Source of the DNA: an uncultured bacterium
GTDB taxonomy: Bacteria > Verrucomicrobiota > Kiritimatiellia > PWTM01
Reading direction: 5' to 3'
DNA: 47,092 nt
NCBI GenBank assembly: GCA_937139365.1
Contig: CAKZPT010000098.1
Span: forward strand, 1-47,092
A program made the translations under genes and the position numbers. Numbering within the stretch: the first letter of the stretch is position 1; each line of letters opens with the position of its first letter. Below, in pieces: positions 32,024 to 32,411 of the stretch. The notes under the pieces are model-generated. The model was not told the DNA's origin and ran no database searches. It saw only the letters and a program-made list of their open reading frames with translations.

Positions 32024-32054
32024 AAGAAGCGGCGGAACGCGTCCGCCGCTTCTT
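32024..32054. terminator. Perfect 13-bp hairpin terminator
   Basis: AAGAAGCGGCGGA at 32024-32036 pairs without mismatch with TCCGCCGCTTCTT at 32042-32054 around the 5-base loop ACGCG. It sits 45 bases past the stop of the Lys/Ala mini-gene on the minus strand and ahead of nrdR. No long U-tract follows in either direction, but the A/T-rich base of the stem would supply TTCTT on both strands. Confidence 0.8.
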
Positions 32055-32099
32055 GTCGTATCGGTCGCCGCCCGTCCCGCGACGGGCGGCCCGTCGAGC

Positions 32100-32159
32100 T
32101 TACTTCTTCTTCGCGGCCTTCTTCGCGGGCTTCTTCGCGGCCTTCTTCTTCGCGGGCAT
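32100..32159 (-). CDS. 19-residue Lys/Ala mini-protein (histone-H1-tail-like)
   Basis: From ATG 32159 the peptide is MPAKKKAAKKPAKKAAKKK, then TAA. Eleven of nineteen residues are Lys. A very strong ribosome-binding site, AAAGGGGGG, lies just upstream with a suitable gap. A promoter (32363-32390) and a perfect terminator (32024-32054) frame it. KKAAKK repeats are typical of short H1-like DNA-binding proteins found in several phyla, but those are usually 60 residues or longer. An in-frame ATG at 32348 would make an 82-residue basic protein, whose N-terminal part looks like random GC-rich sequence. Either a truly tiny nucleoid peptide or a leader/ncRNA unit is possible. Confidence 0.6.
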   Translation of the reverse strand: MPAKKKAAKKPAKKAAKKK

Positions 32160-32362
32160 GCGGTGTTCCCCCCTTTCATCCCGGACTGTTCGGTCCGGAT
32201 CGTTCACATCGGTGCGCGCCGGACAAGGCCGGCGTTCGCGAGCGAACCGTCGTGGTCGTGGGATCGAAAAGGGGGAGATGCGGAGACGGAGCGGGCGCAC
32301 ACCGGACGATCTTCCTCGAACCGAGGCCGTCACGCGCGCGTTCGTCACTCATGTTGGCGCTA

Positions 32363-32411
32363 CATATAAGGATTTTTTTCTGCACGTCAATGTCGGCGAA
32401 GAAAAATTTTT
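32363..32411 (-). promoter_or_regulatory. Strong sigma70-like promoter with A/T-rich UP element
   Basis: The minus strand carries TTGACG (32390-32385), a 16-base spacer and TATATG (32368-32363). AAAAATTTTT at 32411-32402 lies 12-21 bases upstream of the -35, where an UP element would sit. It begins only 8 bases beyond the tadC stop and points at the Lys/Ala mini-gene, giving a leader of about 195 nt. Confidence 0.6.

Follow-up and report, generated by a model that had tools for sequence, protein, structure and literature searches.

A short open reading frame (ORF) rich in lysine and alanine (K/A), on the minus strand of a contig from an uncultured member of the Kiritimatiellia, represents a real and separate gene, whose 19-residue product would probably be a free-standing histone H1-like K/A/P tail that most likely binds DNA, RNA or polyphosphate electrostatically. 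Direct support comes from the structure of the gene, its conservation, its coding signature, the length variation of its homologs and, in part of the clade, the covariation of a hairpin adjacent to its Shine-Dalgarno (SD) sequence. The whole stretch of DNA that was analysed, hereafter designated as the window, is 47,092 nucleotides long. A limited search of the open-licence literature returned no description of this gene.

Organization of the unit

The first-pass annotation had described a promoter, a leader of about 195 nt, an SD sequence, a 19-codon ORF and a hairpin. All of these elements were located between positions 32024 and 32411 of the minus strand, the strand being absent from that description, and the leader is predicted at nearly the same length. 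The elements, with the evidence on which each was placed, are as follows:

32401 to 32411, minus strand: UP-like A/T-rich stretch AAAAATTTTTC (direct reading of the sequence)
32385 to 32390, minus strand: −35 hexamer TTGACG (direct reading and recurrence in K/A loci)
32363 to 32368, minus strand: −10 hexamer TATATG, spacer of 16 nt (direct reading and recurrence in family f1)
32160 to 32355, minus strand: predicted leader of about 196 nt (comparison with the leaders of relatives)
32180 to 32199, minus strand: SD-adjacent hairpin TCCGGAC-CGAACA-GTCCGGG, directly 5′ of the SD sequence (compensatory changes)
32168 to 32176, minus strand: SD sequence AAAGGGGGG (ATG 8 nt downstream)
32100 to 32159, minus strand: ORF MPAKKKAAKKPAKKAAKKK, 19 aa, net charge +10 (translation and relatives)
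32024 to 32054, minus strand: perfect 13-bp inverted repeat with a loop of 5 nt, terminator-like, with a poor T-tract

The SD sequence had been called very strong, and the pattern AAGGGGGGA-N2-8-ATG indeed occurs once in the 47-kb window against 0.03 occurrences expected. The related pattern AAAGGGGGG-N2-9-ATG has two occurrences in the 2.8-Mb assembly, the reversed control pattern giving one match. A consensus scan for promoters (cut-off of 9/12 and a −10 hexamer ending in T) did not flag the K/A promoter on the minus strand because its −10 hexamer ends in G, and an intrinsic-terminator scan did not flag the 13-bp hairpin because of its poor T-tract; thus, neither element is a textbook one. 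Hairpins homologous to the terminator-like one occupy the same position in sister species. The fold of the predicted transcript (343 nt) gave a weak signal, with a z-score of −2.01 and 6 of 100 shuffles equally low. As judged from sequence comparison, the unit is beyond chance, with synonymous-only change relative to two sister species, the same promoter and the same neighbours.

Conservation and coding signature

Searches using the DNA of the whole unit matched 24 of 58 relatives, its own genome counted, and the best matches set in at the SD-proximal hairpin, slightly upstream of it or within the ORF rather than in the 5′ leader. K/A ORFs were defined by a content of at least 33% K and at least 85% K, A, P, T, V, R, S and M. 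Conservation of the ORF in relatives, on which the first-pass annotation had made its case depend, was found: after duplicate removal, the 159 sequences (158 loci and the window) yielded 36 distinct K/A ORFs, 17 to 107 aa in length, a ratio that is not a frequency since the set includes loci fetched for matching the unit. In the window's family, these ORFs are mostly 17-28 aa long, with one of 84 aa. K/A-like DNA occurs somewhere in 143 of 268 genomes of the class, a count that includes the tails of unrelated proteins, and the only K/A DNA match in the window's own genome is the ORF of the unit.

Codon comparisons with the window revealed 15 identical and 4 synonymous codons in sister L021, and 14 identical and 5 synonymous codons in L022, with no nonsynonymous codon and one in-frame gap in each case; the third sister, L036, has 12 identical, 4 synonymous and 4 nonsynonymous codons, with 2 gaps. 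These figures bear on the view that the transcript is a small RNA in which the ORF is incidental. Its size of about 330 nt and its hairpin end would suit such an RNA, but substitutions that are synonymous only, together with an in-frame codon indel, relative to L021 and L022 while the leader diverges, leave this view with hardly any credibility. Distant short homologs keep their charge (+9 to +15 among the 15 listed) rather than the exact sequence. Profile searches with the short peptides, which are too short for HMMER statistics, gave matches in 2 of 193 genomes of the class; with so few profile matches, the case for homology is based on DNA similarity together with position. By its pattern of substitution and recurrence, the K/A ORF is a real, separate small-protein gene conserved as a protein.

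Promoter recurrence and leader

The putative K/A promoter recurs across families. TTGACG was the best −35 hexamer in 27 of the 36 K/A loci, a raw count for which only hexamers starting with TTGA were searched; another TTGA hexamer was present in five loci and none in four, two of which have less than 90 nt upstream. TTGACG-N16-TATA was found in seven of the nine family f1 loci. The two nearest relatives lack the UP-like stretch, the A+T content of their 25 nt before the −35 hexamer being 0.28 and 0.40. Predicted leaders range from 68 to 317 nt across K/A loci, and a long leader is common among relatives. Within the genus, clear conservation of the leader is limited to its last 45 nt or so, and the region 5′ of the SD-adjacent hairpin shows none.

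This distribution is relevant to another proposal of the first-pass annotation, a structured RNA, in which the leader would be riboswitch-like or sequester the SD sequence and the peptide would be the regulated product. In the window, the predicted cost of opening the SD sequence is 17.2 kcal/mol, which none of the 20 leader shuffles reached, and at most 1 of 20 shuffles was as costly in 5 of 21 loci, namely the window, L022, L128, L129 and L131; the covariation of the SD-adjacent hairpin (see below) would also be compatible with a regulatory RNA. However, opening costs 2.1 kcal/mol in sister L021, where 17 of 20 shuffles are equally costly, and the non-conserved remainder of the leader argues against a riboswitch-like RNA; an Rfam search at gathering scores gave no match in the unit, the sole match in the window being a tRNA elsewhere. 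The proposal was thus largely not borne out, a short SD-adjacent hairpin being all that is kept of the leader, and we regard a structured regulatory RNA as improbable. SD sequestration as a conserved rule was ruled out by the open SD sequence of L021.

The leader also contains CCCCCTTTT (32267 to 32275, minus strand), which is complementary to the SD sequence and forms a strong predicted SD-blocking helix. An open frame of 58 codons (32176 to 32352, minus strand) runs through most of the leader and ends at a TGA that overlaps the SD sequence. Similar frames occur in two sisters (51-58 codons, window included), with a start near the predicted transcription start and the same end. A coding upstream ORF was ruled out, as the middle of the frame shows no conservation and the stop is absent from sister L036.

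The SD-adjacent hairpin

Stems were scored when perfect, with a score of at least 15, and ending 0-8 nt before the SD sequence. By this rule, 23 of 35 K/A loci have a stem, including all nine of family f1. Positions drawn at random from these loci gave 188 of 2100, a control that takes no account of the loci's shared ancestry. The corresponding figure for SD-ATG sites in these loci was 31 of 89, K/A genes themselves included, so that the contrast with other genes is weaker than the contrast with random positions. In an initial stem test based on composition shuffles, p was < 0.05 in 19 of 35 loci and < 0.01 in 5 of 35.

Among three genus members, two double compensatory changes were found in the seven pairs, a result reached by 55 of 500 shuffles. 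The covariation score of a model-fitted alignment of 14 matches was reached by none of 500 shuffles, with both-side changes in six of seven pairs and 93.3% of cells pairing, in an alignment that leans toward its own structure and in which at least one match, L030:5941, lies away from any K/A start. Sliding the stem alignment lowered the score from 0.333 to 0.111 or less. MAFFT alignments of 8 and 23 leaders misregistered the stems and were excluded from the pair counts.

Of an out-of-sample set of 20 newly fetched loci, 12 could be scored and a single one had a stem, a rate not above that of random positions (53/720); among the unscored loci, four had no K/A ORF by the rule and four had no SD sequence by the pattern. 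Stems were missing by the rule in the f30, f16 and f26 loci of this set, as they were in the six f12 loci of the earlier set of 35. Given these absences, the predicted hairpin is a trait of part of the clade and not of the K/A gene as such. The covariance check of the leader suggested in the first-pass annotation came out differently for its two parts, the SD-adjacent hairpin being maintained through compensatory changes in f1 and some other families and the remaining leader showing no conservation. Stems are visible by eye in L190, a scored miss, and in the unscored L200, both excluded by the loop limit or the SD pattern.

Genomic neighbourhood and nrdR

Upstream of the unit, on the same strand, are genes that we take to be homologs of CpaB, CpaF, TadB and TadC from a Tad/Flp pilus operon; downstream, also on the same strand, are presumably NrdR and a RecD2-like helicase. 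The TadC gene is directly upstream in all nine f1 loci. Among the best 80 relatives of this TadC in GTDB genomes, the labels are Kiritimatiellae, Lentisphaerae, PVC group, Verrucomicrobia or simply uncultured bacterium, with three Deltaproteobacteria/Myxococcus records among the weakest; from these labels, the clade is taken to be the class Kiritimatiellae. Stretches centred on nrdR were drawn from its better matches within the class, window included, and were considered usable when at least 450 nt were available upstream; 18 of the 59 usable stretches have a same-strand K/A ORF no more than 700 nt 5′ of nrdR, a figure that is less biased than the 36 of 159 given above.

The lysine or ribosome-stalling leader envisaged by the first-pass annotation would here be a leader peptide or attenuator of nrdR, ribosomes on the lysine-rich ORF setting the fold of the downstream hairpin. 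The position of nrdR after the ORF in these 18 stretches would agree with such a mechanism, as would the presence of a hairpin after the ORF, seen in the window as well as in most f1 relatives. However, a separate TTGAC promoter-like site precedes the nrdR start, 3′ of the K/A ORF, in 14 of the 18 loci, the two genes are about 17 kb apart on the same contig in sister species G002 and about 217 kb apart in G001, and the ORF ranges from 17 to 107 codons. Attenuation would have nrdR transcribed by read-through only, which is at odds with these promoter-like sites and separated genes, and to our knowledge nrdR has no tie to lysine. An attenuator of nrdR is thus very unlikely.

Proposed function and comparison with known proteins

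With its 19 residues, almost exclusively K, A and P, and a charge of +10, the peptide has an H1-like composition. A Pfam scan matched an 81-aa homolog to HC2 (E 2.2e-5) with 25.1 bits, short of the curated cut-off of 40 bits; two other long homologs scored 11-12 bits, and three short homologs (22-28 aa) gave no match. Composition, charge, length variation and this sub-threshold HC2 match favour the bacterial H1-like class, for a low-complexity sequence in which convergence is possible. The genome has two HU/IHF-type genes whose translations are without K/A tails, and the peptide as a copied HU tail was ruled out.

Long homologs of the proposed H1-like peptide resemble chlamydial Hc2 (HctB, PF07382) and Bordetella BpH1 in having lysine-rich repeats, here AKKKV/PAKK units, and the spread of ORF lengths from 17 to 107 aa may reflect a variable number of such units. 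According to the passages of PMC2848022 dealing with Hc2, the size of this protein varies by the number of its lysine-rich repeats (K/A/V/P/T) and its length is 165-237 aa, whereas the ORFs described here seldom exceed 28 aa in the window's family and reach at most 107 aa in the set of 36; K/A homologs also score below the HC2 cut-off. The C-terminal domains of Pseudomonas AlgP and PhaF are likewise K/P/A-rich, disordered and basic DNA-binding tails, and AlgP K/P/A repeat peptides bind DNA in vitro, as stated in the relevant part of PMC9239181. There, the tail belongs to a larger protein, whereas here it is the whole protein and its binding is presumed. In the chlamydial hctA/IhtA system, a histone-like mRNA is reportedly under translational control, the regulator being a trans-acting sRNA, unlike the hairpin in cis considered here.

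A housekeeping-type promoter would produce an mRNA of about 330 nt, in which the short hairpin may set off the very strong SD sequence, by keeping it open or by stabilising the mRNA, for ribosomes to make the peptide. This possibly abundant, low-molecular-weight binder would then localise to the nucleoid or another polyanion and neutralise its charge. In related species, additional K/A repeats would lengthen the product of this gene, as in Hc2/BpH1-type proteins. Among the three products considered by the first-pass annotation, an abundant nucleoid peptide fits best, as the protein is conserved and appears to vary in length by K/A units like H1-like proteins, a fit that concerns the nucleoid part of the proposal.

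The main partner might instead be RNA, ribosomes or polyphosphate rather than chromosomal DNA, making the peptide AlgP-like or RNA-chaperone-like. Composition alone cannot tell these ligands apart; AlgP, a K/P/A-repeat protein, was found at polyphosphate granules (in the relevant part of PMC9239181), and Hc2 is said to bind RNA with higher affinity than Hc1 (in the passages of PMC2848022 cited above). Nothing specific speaks for such a partner, and, in the comparison of neighbours, no gene linked to polyphosphate or encoding a ribosomal protein could be recognised; we consider it unlikely, if the most plausible of the alternatives. A bolder and rather doubtful extension of the H1-like reading is that of a nucleoid protein reduced, in this family, to a single peptide of about 18-28 aa, with the covarying SD hairpin as the target of autoregulation by the peptide itself, so that output would match free polyanion. 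If true, few of the chromatin proteins proposed so far, in any cell, would be as small as this one.

ORFs this short fall below usual gene-calling limits, and a clade-wide basic peptide can thus be missed. A nucleoid peptide of this kind would illustrate how little sequence an H1-like function needs, and the natural length series (17 to more than 100 aa, often beside nrdR) would allow direct testing of repeat number.

Related sequences elsewhere in the phylum

Searches across the phylum matched K/A DNA in 71 of 194 genomes. Among the 30 loci returned, 22 were examined (17 from other classes and 5 from the same class), most of which are tails of long proteins; neither nrdR nor other neighbour proteins had a match at any of them. 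The occurrence of the K/A gene outside the class was rejected on these grounds. K/A/P-rich C-terminal tails of long, otherwise unrelated proteins were observed in L208, L209, L210, L211, L214, L222, L224 and L228, and look like a recurrent add-on. Such Verrucomicrobiota tails have the same K/A/P composition as the peptide but extend the C-termini of long ORFs instead of having genes of their own. Short free-standing K/A ORFs were seen in three of the 17 loci from other classes (L212, L213 and L227), with no nrdR match in the stretch. In family f31, the K/A-rich ORFs of L195 (from 638) and L202 (from 681, both in minus-strand count) contain cysteine pairs or runs (CC, CCC), an unusual feature for a histone-like protein.
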